DNA from: an uncultured Flavobacteriaceae bacterium
GTDB taxonomy: Bacteria > Bacteroidota > Bacteroidia > Flavobacteriales > Flavobacteriaceae
Reading direction: 5' to 3'
Length of the DNA stretch: 64,000 nucleotides
NCBI GenBank assembly: GCA_947487895.1
Contig: CANKYF010000002.1
Coordinates: 124,001 to 188,000, forward strand
The notes beneath the pieces are model-generated. The model was not told the origin of the DNA and did not search any database. It saw only the letters and a program-made list of their open reading frames with translations. Shown one piece after another: positions 43,657 to 52,750 of the stretch (position 1 is its first letter; each line of letters starts with the position of its first letter). The position numbers and the translations under genes are program-made.

Positions 43657-44250
43657 TTATTTATGTCTCCCTTTTAATTCAGCTTCAATATCTTTTAAAG
43701 TAAAGCCTTTTGCTTGTAAAAGCATTAAATAGTGAAACAATAAATCTGCCGATTCATACAGAAATAATTCATCATTATTATCCATAGCTTCAATAACCGT
43801 TTCAACTGCTTCCTCTCCTACCTTTTGAGCTACTTTATTAATACCTTTTGAAAATAAACTGGCTACATAAGATTTAGCAGTGTCTTTATTTGCAACACGT
43901 TCAGCAATGGTGTTTTCTAAAGTAGAAAAGAAGCCATAATTAGAGATATTCTCTTCTTTCCAACAAGTATCTGTTCCTGTATGACATGTTGGTCCAACTG
44001 GGTTTACTTGAATTAATAATGAATCATTATCACAATCGTTTTTAATATCAACCAAGTTTAAAAAGTTACCACTTTCTTCTCCTTTAGTCCATAAACGTTG
44101 TTTACTTCTACTAAAAAAGGTTACTTTTTTAGTTTCTAAAGTTTTTTGATAAGCTTCTTCATTCATGTATCCCAACATTAAGACGTTTTTGGTTATTGCG
44201 TCTTGAATAATTGCTGGTACTAATCCGTTTGAATCGTATTTTATTTTCAT
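43657..44250 (-). CDS. hisIE: bifunctional phosphoribosyl-AMP cyclohydrolase / phosphoribosyl-ATP pyrophosphatase
   Basis: 197 residues. The HisI half (about 1-110) has MLGYMNEEAYQKTLETKKVTFFSRSKQRLWTKGEESGN and the Cys/His metal site NPVGPTCHTGTDTCW. The HisE half has the helical pyrophosphatase pattern SLFSKGINKVAQKVGEEAVETVIEA. It performs steps 2 and 3 of histidine synthesis. It is the last gene of the his operon and starts 1 base after the cREC gene stop. Confidence 0.97.
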   Translation of the reverse strand: MKIKYDSNGLVPAIIQDAITKNVLMLGYMNEEAYQKTLETKKVTFFSRSKQRLWTKGEESGNFLNLVDIKNDCDNDSLLIQVNPVGPTCHTGTDTCWKEENISNYGFFSTLENTIAERVANKDTAKSYVASLFSKGINKVAQKVGEEAVETVIEAMDNNDELFLYESADLLFHYLMLLQAKGFTLKDIEAELKGRHK

Positions 44251-44251
44251 T

Positions 44252-44587
44252 TTATTTTTTGTTAAGGAAACTGATATAATTGTTTAAAAGTCCTTTTATT
44301 TGTTCTGCTGCGACTGGGTTAGCTGAATGTACTTTGAATTTAAAGTTTTTTAAATCTAAACCAGATTCATAAACTAACCATTTAGCAGCTGCATAGCCAT
44401 CTGGTGCAACGTTATTATTTTCGTCAAGTCCTAAGTCATTATCAAAACTTATGAAACTTGGTAAGCCATTGATTTTGATATATTCTATAAAATCATTAAA
44501 ATTTCTAACAATATCAAATTCACTTTCCATTGATTTATCATAAATCATTTCTATTTCTCTTACATCATCTAGAAATAACTTTTTCAT
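44252..44587 (-). CDS. cyclic-phosphate-processing receiver (cREC) domain protein
   Basis: 111 residues. Stand-alone receiver-like domain: MKKLFLDDVREIE at the N-terminus, SFISFDNDLG in place of the usual phospho-acceptor strand, and DGYAAAKWLVYE. This matches the cREC group (cyclic-phosphate-processing receiver), which in other bacteria sits with nucleic-acid end-processing genes. Here it is embedded in the his operon between hisF and hisIE, 1 base ahead of hisIE, with no RNA-repair partner. Its role is unknown; the location could be chance or a link to nucleotide chemistry. Confidence 0.82.
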   Translation of the reverse strand: MKKLFLDDVREIEMIYDKSMESEFDIVRNFNDFIEYIKINGLPSFISFDNDLGLDENNNVAPDGYAAAKWLVYESGLDLKNFKFKVHSANPVAAEQIKGLLNNYISFLNKK

Positions 44588-44632
44588 AATTTATTATAAA
44601 TTCTAAATCAGACATGCAGTTCAACATAACAA

Positions 44633-45388
44633 CTAGAGTCGTACTTCAATATTACTTTCTTTTAACTCTTTTTTCAATTGAGGAATAGGTATTTCACCAA
44701 AATGAAATACACTAGCTGCTAAAGCAGCATCAGATTTTCCTTCTTTAAATGTATCTATAAAATGCTCTACATTACCTGCACCTCCAGACGCAATGATTGG
44801 AATATTCAATGCTTCTGATAATTTGGCTAGTGCTTTATTTGCAAAACCTGCTTTGGTACCATCATGATCCATTGAAGTAAATAATATTTCACCTGCACCA
44901 CGTTTTTCAACTTCTTTGGCCCATTCAAATAAATCAATATCAGTTGGAATGGTTCCTCCTGCTAAATGTACTTTCCAATTACCATCTATCTGTTTTGCAT
45001 CAATAGCAACAACTACACATTGGCTTCCAAATTTATCAGCTAATTCATTTACCAATTCAGGACGCTTTACAGCTGAAGAATTAATAGACACCTTATCTGC
45101 TCCGCATTTTAAAAGCGCATCAACGTGTTCTATTGATGATATACCGCCACCAACAGTAAAAGGTATATTTACTTGTTCTGCCACCCGTGTTACCATATCT
45201 AAAGTAGTTCCTCTAGCTTCTAAAGTAGCTGCAATATCTAAAAAAACCAATTCATCGGCACCAACTTCTGCATATTGTTTTGCCAACTCCACAGGGTCAC
45301 CAGCATCACGTAAATCAACAAAATTAACACCTTTAACGGTACGTCCGTTTTTTATATCTAAGCAAGGAATGATTCTTTTTGTAAGCAT
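44633..45388 (-). CDS. hisF: imidazole glycerol phosphate synthase, cyclase subunit
   Basis: 251 residues, TIM barrel. [32 protein letters not shown] is the diagnostic N-terminus, with catalytic Asp in CLDIKNG and in [13 protein letters not shown], and phosphate sites VGGGISS and ASGGAG. It forms imidazole glycerol phosphate and AICAR with HisH. It lies 55 bases after hisA. Confidence 0.98.
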
Positions 45389-45443
45389 TTTTTAATGAGT
45401 ATTTAGCCTTTAGTATTTAGAAGTTAGTTTTGTAATGATCTAG

Positions 45444-46178
45444 TTAAACAAATTTTTCAAGTTGATTCAAGCTAATTCTATTTTCATAGATAGCTTTTCC
45501 AATAATAACACCTTCACAACCTAACTCAATTAACTTTGGTAATTCATCTATGTGCGAAATACCTCCAGAGGCTATTAGTTTTATAGACTGACCACTGCTA
45601 CTGTTTGTACACTCTGATATAATCTCATTATACAATTCAAAAGAAGGCCCTTGTAACATACCATCTTTTGATATATCTGTGCAAATAACATAATGAATGC
45701 CTTTTTTTTGATACTCTTTAATAAAAGGTATCACTTCTTCAGAACTATCTTCTTGCCATCCACTAATAGCTATTTTCCCAGCATTACTATCAGCTCCTAA
45801 AATAATTTTTTCACTTCCGTATTTAGAAATCCAACTTTCAAAGGTTTTAGGATCTTTAACCGCAATACTTCCTCCTGTAATTTGTCTAGCACCAGAATTA
45901 AATGCTATATGCAAATCTTCATCTGCTTTTAAACCGCCACCAAAATCAATTTTTAACTTTGTTTTTGCTGCAATTTGCTCAAGTACTTTATAATTGACAA
46001 TGTGTTTAGCTTTCGCTCCATCTAAATCTACTAAATGTAAATACTCTATCCCAGAAGCTTCAAACATTTTAGCAACTTCTAACGGGTTTTCGTTATATAC
46101 TTTTTTAGTATCATAGTCGCCTTTTGTAAGACGTACACATTTACCTTCAATAATATCTATAGCGGGTATAATCCTCAT
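45444..46178 (-). CDS. hisA: ProFAR isomerase
   Basis: 244 residues, TIM barrel related to HisF. Motifs: [49 protein letters not shown], and [18 protein letters not shown]. Amadori isomerase of histidine synthesis (5'-ProFAR to PRFAR). It follows a 59-codon ORF by 2 bases. Confidence 0.98.
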
Positions 46179-46180
46179 AA

Positions 46181-46360
46181 CTATTTAAGTTCTTTAACGA
46201 TCTCTCGTATTTTATTTATTAAGAAATTAGTTTCTTCTAGATGGTGCTTTTCTAAGCTTTCATAGCGCTCTTGCCAAGATAAACTATCATCATCAATATA
46301 CCTTTTTACTTTAATCCATTTATATGTTTCAAGTATTATCTTTTTTTCTAGTTCATCCAC
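46181..46360 (-). CDS. small 59-residue protein between hisH and hisA (GTG start)
   Basis: The frame opens with GTG at 46360, 12 bases after the hisH stop, and ends 2 bases before hisA. The product is charged and helical: an N-terminus like [20 protein letters not shown], then [17 protein letters not shown] and a C-terminal [12 protein letters not shown]. No ATG is available in this frame; the ATG at 46356 is out of frame and stops after two codons. Amphipathic pattern, tight fit between his genes and lack of stops favour a real gene. Function is unknown. I could not compare it with other genomes. Confidence 0.62.
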
Positions 46361-46372
46361 AACTTCAAGTTA

Positions 46373-46954
46373 TTATAATTCTAAGAAGTTTTGCAATATT
46401 TTAGCGCCCTCACTTCCGCTTTTTTCAGGGTGAAACTGCGTTCCGTAAAAATTCTTATGTTGTAATGCTGAAGCATAATTAATTTCATAATCAGTAGCAG
46501 CAATGGTTTCATTACAATGCTCAGCATAATAACTGTGTACCAAATACATATATTCATTCTCTTTGACACCTTTAAACAAATCGGATTTTAAGTTTTTAAT
46601 CACATTCCATCCCATTTGTGGCACTTTTACACTATTTGAAAAACGCTTTACATTGGTTTGAAAAATGCCTAAACCTTCAGTATCTCCTTCTTCTGTATGT
46701 AAACACATGAGTTGCATACCCAAACATATTCCTAAAACAGGTTGTTTTAGATTAGGTATTAATTCATCTAAACTACTTTCCTTCAACATTTTCATTGCTG
46801 AACTTGCTTCTCCTACACCTGGGAAAATCAATTTATCGGCAGCCTTAATTTCTTCAGGGTCCTTAGACAACATCGCTTCATACCCTAACCTATTAAAAGC
46901 AAACTGAATACTTTTTATATTTCCTGCTCCGTAATCTATAATTACTAGTTTCAT
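46373..46954 (-). CDS. hisH: imidazole glycerol phosphate synthase, glutaminase subunit
   Basis: 193 residues, class I glutamine amidotransferase. N-terminal VIIDYGAGNIKSIQFAFNRLGYE; nucleophile Cys in VLGICLGMQLM; His and Glu in GTQFHPEKSG. It supplies ammonia to HisF. A 119-base gap to hisB holds a family II repeat. Confidence 0.97.
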   Translation of the reverse strand: MKLVIIDYGAGNIKSIQFAFNRLGYEAMLSKDPEEIKAADKLIFPGVGEASSAMKMLKESSLDELIPNLKQPVLGICLGMQLMCLHTEEGDTEGLGIFQTNVKRFSNSVKVPQMGWNVIKNLKSDLFKGVKENEYMYLVHSYYAEHCNETIAATDYEINYASALQHKNFYGTQFHPEKSGSEGAKILQNFLEL

Positions 46955-46966
46955 TTCTTTATTCTA

Positions 46967-47063
46967 TTCTGTCAGTTCAAGTTGAGGCTTTAAGCCGAAG
47001 TATAGAGAACATGTCAAGTACTTCTCGATACAATTTCTCATTCTTCGAAATCACTCGAAGTGA
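46967..47063. repeat. family II intergenic element between hisH and hisB
   Basis: GTCAGTTCAAG ... CTTCGAAATCACTCGAAGTGACA; contains ACTTCTCG/CGAAGT-type complementary parts. It resembles the elements at 48221 and 50664 in core words (CTTCGA, GTGACA). Confidence 0.55.
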
Positions 47064-47073
47064 CATTAAATTA

Positions 47074-48213
47074 TTAAAGCATTCCTTTTGTACTTGGTAA
47101 AAACATTTTATTAGCATCACGTTTTACCGCCATTTTCATTGCTTTAGCAAAGGCTTTAAAAATACCTTCTATTTTATGATGTTCATTAACACCTTCAGCT
47201 TTTACATTCAAATTACATTTAGCACCATCTGTAAACGATTTAAATAAGTGGAAAAACATTTCTGTTGGCATATCCCCTATTTTTTCACGTTTAAATTCAG
47301 CATCCCATTCTAACCAATTTCTTCCACCAAAATCAACAGCTACTTGTGCTAAACAATCATCCATTGGCAAACAGAAACCATAACGTTCTATGCCTAACTT
47401 ATTTCCTAAAGCTTTATTAAATAATTCACCTAAAGCAATCATAGTATCTTCAATAGTATGGTGCTCATCAACTTCCAAATCTCCATTTACTTTAATGGTT
47501 AAATCCATGGCACCATGACGACCAATTTGATCTAACATATGATCAAAAAAAGACAACCCTGTATCTATATCATTCTTACCTGAACCATCTAGATTCAGCT
47601 TTATATATATCTGAGTTTCATTTGTATTACGAGTAATTTCTTCAACCCTATCCTTAAGCTTTAAAAACTCGTATATTTCTTTCCAATCTGTACTTGTTAA
47701 TGCAATGCAATCAAAAATTTCTTGTTTTGAAGCTTCAATTTCATCAGCACCTAAATTTGGATCTTCAGACAGATAAATACCTTTAGCTCCTAGGTTTTTA
47801 GCCAATTCCATATCGGTGATTCTATCACCCAATACAAAAGAATTTTCTAAATCATATTTATTTTTATCAAAATACTTAGTTAGCAAACCTGTTCTTGGTT
47901 TACGAGTATCAGCATTTTCATGAGGAAATGTTTTATCTATATGAATATCTGTAAATACAACACCTTCTTTTTCAAAAGCTGTGATTACTTTATTTTGAGC
48001 GGACCAAAAGGTGTCTTCCGGAAAAGAATCTGTTCCTAACCCATCTTGATTTGTCACCATTACCAACTCATAATCCAATTCAGTAGCTATTTTTGCCATG
48101 TATTGAAATACTTTAGGGTAAAATTCTAGCTTCTCTAAACTATCTAATTGATAATCTACTGGTGGCTCTAGCACCAGAGTACCGTCTCTATCTATAAATA
48201 ATACTTTTTTCAT
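47074..48213 (-). CDS. hisB: bifunctional histidinol phosphatase / imidazoleglycerol-phosphate dehydratase
   Basis: 379 residues. The N-terminal HAD phosphatase (about 1-165) has nucleophile [10 protein letters not shown] and [12 protein letters not shown]. The C-terminal dehydratase (about 190-379) has the Mn ligands in [15 protein letters not shown] and [14 protein letters not shown]. The fusion matches the E. coli type HisB. It lies between hisC and hisH, with long gaps on both sides filled by family II repeats. Confidence 0.97.
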
Positions 48214-48220
48214 CTTTTAT

Positions 48221-48322
48221 GTCATTCCTGCGAAGGCAGGAATCTATATTTTTAAGATTATTTAATTTTATGTGGATTCCGCATCACACTTCGACTCCGC
48301 TCAGTGCCCGTACGGAATGACA
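48221..48322. repeat. family II palindromic element between hisC and hisB
   Basis: ATTCCTGC-GAAG-GCAGGAAT hairpin at 48224-48243, then GGATTCCGCATCACACTTCGAC and CGGAATGACAA at the far end. It fills the 111-base intercistronic gap. Confidence 0.75.
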
Positions 48323-48324
48323 AA

Positions 48325-49362
48325 TTATATTAATTCCTTTAATACTTTAATCAATGTTCTGTTTTCAATTTGAGTTCCAACTGTAAATCGTAAACAATTT
48401 TCGCAACCTGGTTGTGTGGTTCTATTTCTAATCACAATGCCTTTTTCTATTAACTCGTCGTAACGTTTTGTTGCATCATCTACTTTTGCGAGTACAAAAT
48501 TGGCATCTGAAGGGAATATTTCTGAAACAAAAGACACTTCTTTCAACTTCTCAATTAAAGATGCTCTTTCTTCTAAAATTGATCTAATTTGTTTTTGAAC
48601 TTCAGATATATTCTTTAATTGCTCTATAGCTCGCTGTTGCGTCAATTCATTAACATTATACGGGGGTTTTATATTATTTAAAACCTGAATAATCTCTTTT
48701 GAAGCAAAACATATCCCTAAGCGAATTCCAGCCATTCCGTAAGCTTTAGATAACGTCTGCGTTACTATTAAATTAGGATATTCATTCAATCTCCCAATCC
48801 AACTTGGATTTTCAGCAAAATCAATATATGCTTCATCTATCACCACCACACCTTTAAATTCTTTTAAAAGCCTTTCTATAGATGCTTCTGAAAAACTATT
48901 ACCTGTTGGGTTATTAGGTGAACACAAAAACAATAGTTTACTGTTATTATCTGCAACTTCTAAAATTTTATCAACTTGTGGCTGAAAATCTTCTGTAAGC
49001 TGAACCGTCTTAATAGCAATTGCATTAATATTAGCCAATACACTGTACATGCCATAAGTAGGTGGCAACGTAATAATATTATCAATATTTGGCTCACAGA
49101 AAGCTCTATAGATTAAATCAAGTACTTCATCACTTCCGTTTCCCAATAAAACATTTTCAACAGGAATATTTTTTAAGCTTGAAAGCAACCCTTTAACAGT
49201 ACTTTGCTGCGGATCTGGATACCTATTAACCCCATTTTCAAACGGGTTTTCATTGGCATCTAAAAACACCATATCTTTAGGCACGCCTTTAAATTCATCT
49301 CTAGCAGATGAATAAGGTTTTAATGCTCTTATACTTGGTCTTATTAAATCTAAAACGTTCAT
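48325..49362 (-). CDS. hisC: histidinol-phosphate aminotransferase
   Basis: 345 residues, PLP aminotransferase fold I. LDANENPFENGVNRYPDPQQ, LGNGSDEVLDLIYRAFC, CSPNNPTGN, VVIDEAYIDFA, and PLP-Lys in TLSKAYGMAGIRLG; C-terminal RNRTTQPGCENCLRFTVGT. The gene overlaps hisD by one base (the hisC ATG and the hisD stop share it). Confidence 0.97.
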   Translation of the reverse strand: MNVLDLIRPSIRALKPYSSARDEFKGVPKDMVFLDANENPFENGVNRYPDPQQSTVKGLLSSLKNIPVENVLLGNGSDEVLDLIYRAFCEPNIDNIITLPPTYGMYSVLANINAIAIKTVQLTEDFQPQVDKILEVADNNSKLLFLCSPNNPTGNSFSEASIERLLKEFKGVVVIDEAYIDFAENPSWIGRLNEYPNLIVTQTLSKAYGMAGIRLGICFASKEIIQVLNNIKPPYNVNELTQQRAIEQLKNISEVQKQIRSILEERASLIEKLKEVSFVSEIFPSDANFVLAKVDDATKRYDELIEKGIVIRNRTTQPGCENCLRFTVGTQIENRTLIKVLKELI

Positions 49363-50645
49363 TACTTCAAATCCTTTAATCTAATGCTTACGGCATTTTT
49401 GTGTGCTTGCAATCCTTCGGCCTCTGCCATTAACTCAATGGTTTCTCCTATATTTAAAATACCTTCTTTTGATATTTTTTGAAACGTCATACTCTTTAAA
49501 AAGCTATCTAAATTAACTCCAGAATACGCTTTAGTAAACCCATTTGTTGGTAAGGTATGGTTTGTTCCTGATGCATAGTCTCCAGCACTTTCTGGCGTGT
49601 AATTACCAATAAATACTGAACCAGCATTTCGTATACCTTCTACATAAAAATCTTCGCTTTTCGAACAAATAATAAAGTGTTCTGGTCCATATTGATTAAT
49701 CAAATCTAGGGCTGTTTTATCATCTTCAACAAAGATAGACTTAGAATTAGCTATGGCTTTTTCAGCTATATCTCTTCTTGGTAAAACAGCTATTTGAGCA
49801 TTCACTTCTTCTGAAACATTTTTAATGAGTTCTTTTGAAGTTGACACAAAAATCACCTGACTATCTATACCGTGCTCTGCTTGACTTAACAAATCTGACG
49901 CTATGTAGCTAGCATTAGCACTTTCATCAGCAACAACTAATAATTCACTTGGTCCTGCAGGCATATCTATGGCTACACCATATTTAGTTGCTAGTTGTTT
50001 AGCAACGGTTACAAACTGGTTGCCTGGTCCGAATATTTTATATACTTTCGGAATAGTCTCTGTCCCAAATGTTAAAGCAGCAATGGCTTGTATACCACCT
50101 ACTTTGAATATTTTGGTAACACCACAAAGTTTGGCTGCATATAATATTTCTGCTGCTAATTTACCCTCTTTATTTGGAGGCGAACACAACACAATTTCGT
50201 TACAACCTGCTATTTGAGCAGGTGCTGCTAACATTAACACTGTTGAGAATAATGGTGCAGTACCTCCAGGAATATATAAACCTACACTTTCTATAGCTCG
50301 TTTTTCTTGCCAACATTGCACACCATTTACTGTCTCAATAGCTACTTTTGATGTTTTTTGGGCTGCGTGAAATACTTCTATATTTTGCTTCGCGTTTTTT
50401 ATAGCATCTTTCAAATTCTGAGGAATCTTACTAACAGCTTCTTCAATTTCTTCGGTAGAAACTAAATTATCTTCCAAAACTACCTTGTCAAAACGCTCAG
50501 TATATTCTTGAATAGCCTTATCTCCATTCTGTTGAATATCTTCAAACACTTCACTAACCACACCTTCAATATCATCTACTGTTTGTGTAGGTCGCTTTAA
50601 AATATCAGACCAACTATCTCTATTTGGGTTTTCTATGATTTGCAT
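49362..50645 (-). CDS. hisD: histidinol dehydrogenase
   Basis: 427 residues. GLYIPGGTAPLFSTVLMLAAPAQIAGC, FKVGGIQAIAALTFGT, KIFGPGNQFVTVAKQ, MPAGPSELLVVADESANA and the Zn-site HGIDSQVIF...GPEHFI, GSVFIGNYTPESAGDYASGTNHTLPT. Catalyses the last two steps of histidine synthesis. It is second in the operon after hisG, with a 126-base gap holding a family II repeat. Confidence 0.97.
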   Translation of the reverse strand: MQIIENPNRDSWSDILKRPTQTVDDIEGVVSEVFEDIQQNGDKAIQEYTERFDKVVLEDNLVSTEEIEEAVSKIPQNLKDAIKNAKQNIEVFHAAQKTSKVAIETVNGVQCWQEKRAIESVGLYIPGGTAPLFSTVLMLAAPAQIAGCNEIVLCSPPNKEGKLAAEILYAAKLCGVTKIFKVGGIQAIAALTFGTETIPKVYKIFGPGNQFVTVAKQLATKYGVAIDMPAGPSELLVVADESANASYIASDLLSQAEHGIDSQVIFVSTSKELIKNVSEEVNAQIAVLPRRDIAEKAIANSKSIFVEDDKTALDLINQYGPEHFIICSKSEDFYVEGIRNAGSVFIGNYTPESAGDYASGTNHTLPTNGFTKAYSGVNLDSFLKSMTFQKISKEGILNIGETIELMAEAEGLQAHKNAVSIRLKDLK

Positions 50646-50771: not shown

Positions 50772-51629
50772 TTACAATACCATCTTTTCAATTGGACACA
50801 CTAATATACCTTCTGCTCCTTTTTCTTTTAAAGCATCAATCACATCCCAAAATTCATTTTTACTTATTACAGAGTGTATCGAACTCCAGCCTTCCTGTGC
50901 TAATGGTAATACTGTTGGACTCTTCATACCTGGCAGCACATTTATGATATCCTGCACTTTATCATTAGGCGCATTTAGTAAAATATATTTTGATTGTCTC
51001 CCTTTTAAAACAGATTGAATTCTAAATTGTATAGTTTCCAAAATGGCTTTACGCTCATCATTTAAAATAGGTGAAACTGCTAAAACAGCTTCAGACTTCA
51101 GTAATACTTCAATTTCTTTTAGTCCATTTTTAAACAACGTGCTTCCACTAGAAACAATATCACAAATACCATCTGCTAAACCAATATTAGGTGCAATTTC
51201 TACTGAACCATTAATCTTGTGCAGTTGTGCTTCTAAACCTTGCTCCTTTAAGAACTTCTTTACTGTTACAGGGTAAGATGTTGCAATTCGTTTTTCGTTT
51301 AAATCTTTTAAAGAATTAGCGGTTGAATCTTTAGGCACTGCAATGGATACTTTACACTTAGAAAATCCTAATTTTTCAGCAATTTCAATATCTCCTCCTT
51401 TTTCAATTAAAACATTTTCTCCAATAATGGCAACATCTACTACACCATCCTTTAAATACTGTGGGATATCACCATTTCTAAGGTAAAATACTTCTACTGG
51501 AAAGTTTCTAGCTGAAGCTTTTAATTGATCCTTTCCGTTATCAATAGAAATACCAATATCTTTTAAAATTCTCATTGAGTCTTCGTTTAGACGACCCGAT
51601 TTTTGCACTGCAATTCTTAATTTACTCAT
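50772..51629 (-). CDS. hisG: ATP phosphoribosyltransferase
   Basis: 285 residues from the ATG at 51629 (MSKLRIAVQKSGRLNEDS); an in-frame TTG at 51656 lies in the leader and is not preferred. Long-form HisG: catalytic lobes with GVVDVAIIGENVLIE, KRIATSYPVTVKKF, GLADGICDIVSSGSTLFKNGL, and a C-terminal ACT-like domain (about 210-285) for histidine feedback. First enzyme of the pathway and first gene of the operon, under the hisL attenuator. Confidence 0.96.
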   Translation of the reverse strand: MSKLRIAVQKSGRLNEDSMRILKDIGISIDNGKDQLKASARNFPVEVFYLRNGDIPQYLKDGVVDVAIIGENVLIEKGGDIEIAEKLGFSKCKVSIAVPKDSTANSLKDLNEKRIATSYPVTVKKFLKEQGLEAQLHKINGSVEIAPNIGLADGICDIVSSGSTLFKNGLKEIEVLLKSEAVLAVSPILNDERKAILETIQFRIQSVLKGRQSKYILLNAPNDKVQDIINVLPGMKSPTVLPLAQEGWSSIHSVISKNEFWDVIDALKEKGAEGILVCPIEKMVL

Positions 51630-51678
51630 TTTGTTTTTGTTATGAGTTTGAAACAATCTTGTTGATTTTAGAAATGAA

Positions 51679-51707
51679 AAACCCGCTTGATTGTCTCAAA
51701 CGGGTTT
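51679..51707 (-). terminator. his attenuator (terminator hairpin in the hisG leader)
   Basis: Minus strand reads AAACCCG ... CGGGTTT, a 7-bp stem extended by 4 more pairs (TTGA/TCAA) after one mismatch, with a 5-base loop and followed by TTTTTC. It lies 29 bases after the hisL stop and 49 bases before hisG, so it can stop the transcript before the operon. Confidence 0.85.
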
Positions 51708-51735
51708 AAATATTTTGATTTTATTCAATACATTT

Positions 51736-51789
51736 TCACTTCGCTTGAGAGCAAATATGAAAATGATGATGTGTTTGAATAAAAGTCAT
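51736..51789 (-). CDS. hisL: his operon leader peptide
   Basis: 17-codon ORF, ATG at 51789, stop TGA at 51736-51738, product MTFIQTHHHFHICSQAK with three His codons in a row and a fourth one codon later. It starts 160 bases before hisG and is followed by a terminator hairpin. This is the layout of the classical enterobacterial hisL: ribosome stalling on His codons when charged tRNA-His is scarce should prevent the terminator. A promoter box lies just upstream. The peptide itself is expected to have no other role. Confidence 0.85.
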   Translation of the reverse strand: MTFIQTHHHFHICSQAK

Positions 51790-51806
51790 GTCTTTGTTTG
51801 TTTTTG

Positions 51807-51839
51807 CAAATATCTATAAAAGTTAAGTAAAATTCCAAA
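51807..51839 (-). promoter_or_regulatory. putative his operon promoter
   Basis: Minus strand: TTTG at 51836-51839 and GATATTTG at 51807-51814, a one-mismatch fit to TAnnTTTG. Spacing is 21 bases, a little longer than the usual 19. The expected start near 51800 puts hisL about 10 bases into the transcript. Confidence 0.45.
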
Positions 51840-51937
51840 TAATAACCTTGATTTTTAAAATTTTACCTTTTCTATAAATAAGAACACACTTTATTGTGCA
51901 AAATTTAAGATATCTACTTAAAAACTGAAATATTTAA

Positions 51938-52750
51938 TTATTGATTTCCTAGAATGATTGGCAAACCACTATCACCAGAGCCAATTACAATGACTTTACT
52001 GTTTGGAGATTCAGATAGTTTCATGGTTGCTTCAATACCTTTATCTTGTAAAATTTTATCTGTTAATGATGCACTTAAAATTTTATTAGATTTTGCTTTA
52101 CCTTCAGCTTCAATAATTTGTTTTTGCGCTTCTTTTTGCGCTGTAACTAATCTAAATTCATATTCTAAAGATTCTTGTTCTTGTTTTAACTTGCGCTCAA
52201 TAGCTTCTTTAATTGAAGAAGGCAAAGTAACATCTTCTACCAAAACGCGTTTTACATTTAAGAATTGACCATCAAGTTCCTTGCGAACTTCTTCTAATAT
52301 TTCTTGTTCTATTACATCACGTTTGCTTGAATACAATTGTTCTGGTGTATAACGACCTACAACACTTCTTGCTGCAGAGTTAATTGCTGGATCAAGTAAT
52401 TCAGCAATAAAATCTTTTCCTTTTGTCTTAATTAAACTACCAAGATTATTATATTCAGGTTCAAACCATATAGTACCATTAACTGATACTTGTAATCCAT
52501 CAACAGAAAGCACATTCATTTTATCAGAAATAGATTGTTGTCTTACTTTGAAAACTAACATCTCATTCCAAGGAGCAACAATGTGAAAGCCTTCTCCGTA
52601 AGTTTTCTCCGTATTTATACCATCACCAAAGCGCTCAAAGATCACACCTCCTTCACCAGGACCAATAGTCACAGCCGATTTAGTAATTAATACGATTAAA
52701 ATTATTAGTCCTATAATTATAGGTAACCCAATTTTTGGTAATTTATCCAT
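51938..52750 (-). CDS. SPFH/band 7 (prohibitin-like) protein
   Basis: 270 residues. One N-terminal membrane helix (about 5-25, KIGLPIIIGLIILIVLITK) anchors it; the band 7 domain follows (AVTIGPGEGGVIFERFGDG, GFHIVAPWNEMLVFKVRQQ, RSVVGRYTPEQLYSSKRDVIEQEI). A helical coiled-coil segment (about 185-225, AIERKLKQEQESLEYEFRLVTAQKEAQKQI) closes it. Family members form large membrane-bound rings that act with proteases or lipids. It lies 12 bases after the VWA gene and may share its transcript. Confidence 0.93.
   Translation of the reverse strand: MDKLPKIGLPIIIGLIILIVLITKSAVTIGPGEGGVIFERFGDGINTEKTYGEGFHIVAPWNEMLVFKVRQQSISDKMNVLSVDGLQVSVNGTIWFEPEYNNLGSLIKTKGKDFIAELLDPAINSAARSVVGRYTPEQLYSSKRDVIEQEILEEVRKELDGQFLNVKRVLVEDVTLPSSIKEAIERKLKQEQESLEYEFRLVTAQKEAQKQIIEAEGKAKSNKILSASLTDKILQDKGIEATMKLSESPNSKVIVIGSGDSGLPIILGNQ

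Follow-up and report, generated by a model that had tools for sequence, protein, structure and literature searches.

A predicted attenuator with a histidine-rich leader peptide before hisG, strongly conserved in the Flavobacteriaceae

In the genome of an uncultured Flavobacteriaceae bacterium the his operon is very likely to be controlled by a ribosome-mediated transcription attenuator lying directly upstream of hisG. This reading is drawn from sequence and prediction, namely a short ORF, a conserved run of His codons, a terminator, mutually exclusive pairings together with their conservation, and an antiterminator strand (C') that would emerge just beyond a stalled ribosome; a promoter, translation of the leader, termination and a dependence on histidine are predicted to accompany these parts.

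The his cluster and its leader region

The window, that is the whole stretch of 64,000 nt that was analysed, carries a his gene cluster on its minus strand in the order hisG, hisD, hisC, bifunctional hisB, hisH, hisA, hisF, a gene for a cREC_REC protein and hisIE, and the gene order and shared strand suggest a single operon with hisG as its first gene. The hisB gene (47074-48213) is of the bifunctional phosphatase/dehydratase type (NF003937), a type that is also enterobacterial, and the cREC_REC (cyclic-phosphate processing receiver) protein of 111 aa is encoded at 44252-44587, between hisF and hisIE. The gap 5' of hisG is 308 nt long and is bounded by a same-strand Band_7/SPFH gene. On the minus strand this gap contains, in order, a possible Bacteroidota-type promoter, a short ORF with clustered His codons whose translation is predicted, and a terminator, after which hisG begins. 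The features, all on the minus strand, are as follows.

51807..51839, minus strand: candidate Bacteroidota-type promoter, with TTTGG at 51839-51835, a 20-nt spacer and GATATTTG at 51814-51807
51736..51789, minus strand: leader ORF MTFIQTHHHFHICSQAK plus TGA, with ATG at 51789, TGA at 51738-51736 and 17 sense codons
51775..51784, minus strand: strand A, codons 2-5, partner of D (A:D, 63.9% of cells paired)
51750..51765, minus strand: strand B, from the third His codon to codon 14, partner of C (B:C, 77.2% paired)
51742..51750, minus strand: C' (UCUCAAGCG), putative antiterminator strand, codons 14-16, partner of E at 51702-51694 (89.3% paired)
51731..51745, minus strand: strand C, 3' half of the B:C hairpin, placed by the B:C pairing
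51719..51728, minus strand: strand D, partner of A, or folded locally inside the antiterminator loop (alignment and folding)
51696..51707, minus strand: strand E, 5' arm of the terminator, AAACCCGUUUGA (E:F, 98.2% paired)
51679..51690, minus strand: strand F, 3' arm of the terminator, UCAAGCGGGUUU, followed by UUCAUUU (pattern and conservation)
51646..51658, minus strand: strand G, GAUUGUUUCAAAC, complementary to E and the loop (51701-51689), 80.8% paired in the alignment
50772..51629, minus strand: hisG, ATP phosphoribosyltransferase, with ATG at 51629 (TIGR00070, 1.6e-55)
43657..50645, minus strand: remaining his genes, hisD to hisIE (profile matches and order)

Histidine occupies leader codons 7, 8, 9 and 11 (HHHFH), and reading of the minus strand bears out the preliminary description, which had given a 17-codon ORF with four His in five positions, 160 bases between the leader and hisG (ATG at 51789 to ATG at 51629) and a hairpin 29 bases past the leader, the last being 28 nt as measured here. 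The RNA from 51815 to 51630 folds at -41.6 kcal/mol with a z score of -6.37, a value equalled by none of 200 shuffles.

Conservation of the leader peptide

A leader was scored where hisG is preceded by an ORF that starts with ATG and has three or more His within seven residues, and three sets of hisG loci were scanned. The near set was taken from the best 80 of 524 relatives and includes Algibacter, Polaribacter, Tenacibaculum, Winogradskyella and Tamlana (Flavobacteriaceae/Flavobacteriales), the best HisG identities to the window being 87-88%; L075, which begins at hisG and has no upstream DNA, was excluded, so that the count of 80 is made up of 79 loci and the window. For the family set, 99 of 120 family genomes had a Pfam HisG match and 97 loci were taken besides the window (G112 was left out, lying 402 nt from a contig end), to which 8 of 15 further matched family genomes were added to give 105, reduced to 104 when L195 was dropped for having too little upstream DNA; some species may occur in both the near and the family set. 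From beyond the family, 75 of 152 matched genomes were examined: every one of the 24 that belong to the class but not to the order, the two that belong to the order but not to the family, and a further 49 in the phylum, partly the best-scoring and partly hand-picked for breadth. The removal of L233, which gave no alignment to the window HisG, left 74.

The leader was found in 80/80 near loci, window included, in 100/104 of the other family loci and in 51/74 loci beyond the family (23/24 of the class outside the order, 2/2 of the order outside the family and 26/48 elsewhere in the phylum). Three of the four family misses have leaders with two His (L084, L143 and L202) and the fourth has a GTG-started HHHHFH (L105). 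As a control the same scan for His was run on the antisense strand, where it gave 0/80, 1/104 and 1/74. When four in seven residues were required and the 19 other residues served as control, His on the sense strand was found in 71/80 near loci (next Lys, 4), 73/104 family loci (next Lys, 4) and 47/74 beyond the family (next Ile, 5). On the antisense strand at this threshold His gave 0 and Met gave 47, 32 and 21, since a run of CAT becomes a run of ATG on the opposite strand.

It could be supposed that a small ORF containing some His codons lies near an unrelated terminator by chance, short ORFs being common in AT-rich DNA; with His far above every other residue in the sense scan and at zero on the antisense strand in the four-in-seven scan, this has next to no probability. 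The preliminary description had judged that chance could hardly account for a His run followed by a hairpin, a judgement sustained by the leader counts set against 0, 1 and 1 in antisense, and the chance reading is refuted by the leader survey, by the co-occurrence of the hairpin and by covariance-model matches before hisG, both given below.

The terminator hairpin

The terminator hairpin (51707-51679, minus strand) starts 28 nt past the leader stop and has 12 pairs, 5 of them GC, with a predicted energy of -16.5 kcal/mol in the window. It is the sole terminator-like site in 51600-51940, where 50 shuffles average 0.0. By its pattern and its conservation it is an intrinsic terminator between the leader and the first gene. 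A hairpin of -6 kcal/mol or lower with a T run, counted only in loci having a leader, stands between the leader stop and hisG in 80/80 near, 100/100 family and 38/51 more distant loci, and starts a median 30 nt past the leader stop in both family sets. The co-occurrence of His run and hairpin, which had been proposed as a check in related flavobacteria, is thus complete in the near loci and in the leader-bearing loci of the family.

Thirteen of the 51 leaders outside the family have no detected hairpin with a T run (L119, L120, L121, L124, L128, L129, L136, L224-L228 and L232, each a His-rich leader before hisG), which means that His leaders can exist without an intrinsic terminator, and these may work by another mechanism. 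By eye, the His clusters in L120, L121 and L124 flank a GAUGUCC/GGACAUC-like hairpin within the ORF, and in L129 the stop codon lies inside a small palindrome, TTCCTC..GAGGAA, as it also does in L132, which has a scored hairpin. These arrangements may belong to another mode of control.

Competing helices and the position of the ribosome

Helices were counted in 50 aligned loci, hand-chosen from the 95 that remain of the 180 leader loci once near-identical and long-spacer loci are taken away, with 500 shuffles and slid registers as controls. E:F has 10 double-change cells against 1.0 shuffled, and all five of its covariation measures lie above all 500 shuffles. B:C has 48 against 18.8 (slid-register pairing 34-50%) and A:D, the weakest helix, has 68 against 46.4, with one slid register giving 69 and slid pairing of 36-50%; by the number of pairs showing double changes, neither B:C nor A:D exceeds the shuffles.

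The preliminary description had suggested folding the leader for an alternative antiterminator, and one is found in the pairing of C' with E, as seen in pairing counts, duplex energy and nascent folds. The paired fraction of C:E compares with 22-46% in slid registers. It hardly covaries within the family: most pairs barely vary, there are 15 double-change cells against 9.6 shuffled, two of the five covariation measures are not above shuffles (2 pairs against 2.1 and 9 types against 9.4) and the remaining three are reached by 19-21 of 500 shuffles. The predicted C':E duplex is -12.8 kcal/mol in the window, and over all loci the C:E means are -12.3 (near), -13.1 (family) and -13.5 kcal/mol (distant). 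Native C:E is better than cross-locus partners by 0.4 near, 1.2 in the family and 4.1 kcal/mol in the distant loci, and this advantage implies that C and E change together where the sequences have diverged enough.

The geometry was computed with the first His codon in the A site and an assumed ribosome reach of 12 nt beyond. The C strand then starts beyond the leading edge of the His-stalled ribosome, by a median of 4 nt in the near set and of 6 nt in the family, and lies no more than 3 nt inside it in 80/80 near, 98/100 family and 31/38 distant loci, the two family exceptions having C' deeper inside than that. Once the stop codon occupies the A site, the C strand is covered in all loci (80/80, 100/100, and the distant set too). 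When nascent RNA up to the end of E is folded with the ribosome stalled at the first His, C:E is in the best fold in 80/80, 100/100 and 34/38 loci; with the ribosome at the stop codon it is in none, by construction since C' is covered, and with no ribosome it is in 31/80 near, 43/100 family and 21/38 distant loci. This nascent-fold count is weak by itself, because shuffled leader segments reach the same 5-pair C:E mark in 60-64% of draws (510/800, 605/1000 and 234/380). In the window the stalled state is predicted at -17.3 to -19.0 kcal/mol, and in the predicted fold of the no-ribosome state B:C and A:D are present and C:E is absent; a default-off state is therefore clear in the predictions for the window, not for all relatives. 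In equilibrium folding E:F remains more stable than C:E even when the ribosome is stalled; the switch therefore has to work kinetically, as attenuators usually do. By prediction and conservation, then, there is an antiterminator that would exclude the terminator, would be freed by a stall at His and would be blocked by a ribosome at the stop codon.

Transcription would start perhaps 10-15 nt 5' of the leader ATG, and a ribosome would begin the 17-codon leader while RNA polymerase proceeds. Were charged tRNA-His scarce, the ribosome would stall on codons 7-9, covering most of B and leaving C' (codons 14-16) free to pair with the emerging E, so that E:F would be blocked and polymerase would read into hisG. 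Were histidine plentiful, the ribosome would reach the stop codon and cover C', E:F would form and transcription would end before hisG. If no ribosome were translating, B:C, with A:D, would sequester C' in the window RNA and the terminator would form by default.

The His-rich ORF might be real and yet act through translation or Rho, on access to hisG or on Rho loading, with the hairpin incidental. The 13 distant leaders that have no detected hairpin and the closeness of strand G to the hisG start speak for such control, but the terminator is there in 180/180 family leaders, is intrinsic by its pattern and is 98.2% paired in the 50 aligned loci, and C:E competes directly with it, which makes this reading improbable beside ribosome-mediated attenuation of transcription.

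Strand G, a further partner of the terminator arm

The terminator arm E has, besides C and F, a third conserved partner in strand G, thirteen bases lying 3' of the terminator and 16 nt 5' of the hisG ATG. The predicted E:G duplex is -16.6 kcal/mol in the window. E:G has 44 double-change cells against 18.6 shuffled, with none of 500 shuffles as high and slid pairing of 24-51%. Its count of pairs is reached by 28 of the 500 shuffles and its count of pair types by 13; the pair formed by columns 109 and 157, for example, is CG in 14 loci, UA in 11 and AU in 10. The distance from the end of G to hisG has a median of 15 nt and quartiles of 14 to 17.5 (133 loci).

Strand G is not universal: at least one in four of the 180 family loci lack it or have it in weak form. 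The E:G duplex is -9 kcal/mol or lower in 135/180, among which at least six match unrelated inserts (L012, L013, L035, L068, L069 and L181, judged by eye within the 20 long-spacer loci), and it is weaker than -7 in 34/180. Native E:G is better than cross pairs by 2.2 near and 2.5 kcal/mol in the family, but roughly one cross pair in three matches its strength. In 38 loci from outside the family the native duplex has hardly any advantage (-6.8, with cross pairs at about -5.8), the exceptions, picked by eye, being L208, L209 and L254 at -12.2 to -15.8.

The idea that G is a gate that hides the hisG start finds no support in folding. Among the 160 of 180 loci with a short spacer, hisG from -12 to +6 has a predicted openness of 0.599 when E is free and of 0.597 when E is kept away, being more open in 32 loci and less open in 44. 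The best fold of the read-through RNA from terminator to hisG mostly leaves E with F (151/160) and puts it with G in 9/160. The fold of the window RNA 51815-51630 does contain E:G. That the three partners of E amount to a second, post-terminator control point in many Flavobacteriales his operons is a tentative suggestion and on balance doubtful. If it held, read-through RNA would refold as E:G beside the hisG start, or alternatively the released, terminated leader would act in trans on G by way of its exposed loop; a parallel for such trans-action is the Sinorhizobium trp attenuator RNA, reported to act on trpDC. To our knowledge, textbook attenuators have no equivalent of strand G.

The candidate promoter

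The promoter consensus of the Bacteroidota has TTTG near -33 and TAnnTTTG near -7, and the candidate promoter fits it with one mismatch. A scan of 51600-51940 for sigma-70 sites gave none on the minus strand and a single one on the plus strand, where 2.4 were expected, and a sigma-70 promoter for the leader was dropped. A relaxed -7 box, [TG]Ann[TC]TTG, counted up to 45 nt from the leader ATG with mononucleotide shuffles as control, occurs in 53/80 near, 57/100 family and 28/51 more distant loci against 2.5, 4.6 and 3.2 in shuffles. The strict TAnnTTTG is absent from the leader region of the window and occurs in 4/80 near loci (1.6 shuffled), 41/100 other family loci (2.8 shuffled) and 26/51 beyond. 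The promoter-like pair reported upstream of the leader in the preliminary description thus stands as a Bacteroidota-type box whose relaxed form is enriched in relatives, and not as one of sigma-70 type. The assignment of the promoter is less sure than that of the leader and terminator, and the start site is a predicted one.

Covariance model and RNA family searches

A covariance model built from the 50-locus alignment was run on 41 family genomes and has a match directly before hisG in 33/33 genomes with a Pfam HisG match, 32 of these at E values of 1.5e-9 or better and G003 at 2.1e-5; 12 of the 33 supplied a row to the model and so match by construction. Among the 8 genomes that have no Pfam HisG match, G027 has a strong model match (1.1e-12), in which the leader is followed, by eye, by an apparent hisG start that does not continue as a 60-codon ATG-started ORF (L339, G027:C11); this is probably a decayed his operon that has retained its leader. 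Further matches below 50 bits are many among the matches listed, and often on both strands. Other copies of the leader were considered, and five weak matches that were inspected are plain terminators with no His run.

No Rfam family reaches its gathering score in the window. Up to E = 10 there are 15 Rfam matches in 51560-51900, none of them to His_leader (the enterobacterial family), T-box or RF01692, and the best, rnk_leader, has E 0.071 and scores 23.6 bits where its gathering score is 50; Trp_leader RF00513 (E. coli-type) has 17.2 bits and E 0.56, far under its gathering score of 41. With Rfam matches only of this weak kind, assignment of the leader to a known RNA family was dropped: it is not a member of His_leader, nor of the T-box riboswitches, which give no model match, nor of Bacteroid-trp RF01692, which likewise gives none, the next gene here being hisG.

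Riboswitches, too, look like conserved, structured 5' elements ahead of biosynthetic operons, and histidine, uncharged tRNA or a protein might be sensed directly by the RNA, as a riboswitch, a T-box or a protein-bound leader, with the ORF as a by-product; a DnaA-dependent riboswitch has been claimed for E. coli his attenuation (PMC10989985). Against this stand the Rfam results for the window and for T-box, and the fact that the His run, the frame and the stop codon are kept whereas the remaining codons of the leader vary, which translation explains best, and direct sensing is accordingly given very little chance, less even than control through translation or Rho.

Leaders before other amino acid operons

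Leaders of other amino acids occur in the source genome. A Phe-rich leader, MKTTVLYTYFSFFYFFFSRRNEAMYI, with a terminator hairpin lies directly before pheA (L281, G000:C10), and Phe-rich ORFs lie before pheA at 10/11 loci of 12 relatives. An Ile/Val-rich leader, MKKQVLNIISIIVLEVSLLQ, ends 300 nt before ilvD and is followed by a strong terminator (L334, G000:C10), with Ile/Val-rich ORFs at 7/11 ilvD loci. Before thrA there is a Thr-rich leader, MNHLDQNNRFTSSLLTKSTVSFVGTTTNTTTLWGC (L345, G000:C2), with a similar one in L346 of the same genus, and by eye no intrinsic terminator was seen at these two inspected loci. The presence of Phe, Ile/Val and Thr leaders in the same genome was counted in favour of reading the his leader as an attenuator. 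A WWW leader is found at 8/11 trpE loci (of 22 matches) and is lacking at trpE of the source genome (L287) and at L288 and L293; directly before trpE in both L287 and L288 another ORF ends, which looks GIY-YIG-like by eye.

Relation to known systems

The ribosome-controlled switch of the enterobacterial his leader is established. The present leader resembles that leader (hisL) in being a short His-rich peptide directly before hisG with a strong terminator and T run between them, the space between hisL and hisG in E. coli K-12 being 145 nt. It differs in having four His among 17 codons, broken by Phe, where E. coli has seven His in a row, and in giving no match to Rfam His_leader; past its terminator it also has strand G, which covaries with E. 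The layout had been called classically enterobacterial in the preliminary description; this holds for the logic of the switch but not for its sequence, given the lack of a His_leader match up to E = 10 and the conserved strand G.

The Bacteroid-trp motif is found upstream of trp genes and contains Trp codons, and it belongs to another operon than the element before hisG. It is a Bacteroidetes motif listed as probably cis-regulatory in the available text of its description (PMC2864571). Proteobacterial his attenuators have been described and new ones predicted in Firmicutes, the latter with three to five consecutive His codons and alternative hairpins, and so in other phyla than here; the word Bacteroidetes does not occur in the available text of that paper (PMC9413887). 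Predicted RNA triplexes with histidyl-tRNA-dependent regulation have been placed ahead of hisG in gamma-proteobacteria and, in some Firmicutes, ahead of hisZ (PMC4833913, available text), and short leader-peptide-like ORFs are known in Bacteroides thetaiotaomicron, his not being among those given in the available text (PMC7366714).

Closest to the present element is a 2021 paper on Flavobacterium psychrophilum, whose available text speaks of "strong clues" for leader-peptide attenuation before amino-acid operons and describes 5' elements before pheA and hisG, also in other Flavobacteriaceae genera, that had no Rfam hits (PMC9723704). The hisG element there concerns the same gene and the same family, and the main text of the paper gives no peptide, helices or hisG survey for it (PMC9723704). 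It is very probably the same element as here, and the discovery of the element as such is therefore not new (PMC9723704, as far as its available text goes). In a literature search confined largely to freely available papers, none was found to describe the parts of a Bacteroidota his element. A survey by Lopatovskaya et al. in 2010 may include Bacteroidetes.

Conclusions

On present sequence evidence the element before hisG is a genuine, strongly conserved his attenuator, of a known kind and outside the Rfam family. With it, his attenuation in the Bacteroidota would move from a hint in a transcriptome paper to an element with defined parts, a conservation and a distribution, the leader being present at 180/184 family loci by the strict criterion. 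Ribosomes of the Bacteroidota mostly start without Shine-Dalgarno pairing, and a working leader of this type would for that reason show that this phylum exploits a tight coupling of translation to transcription to control its genes.
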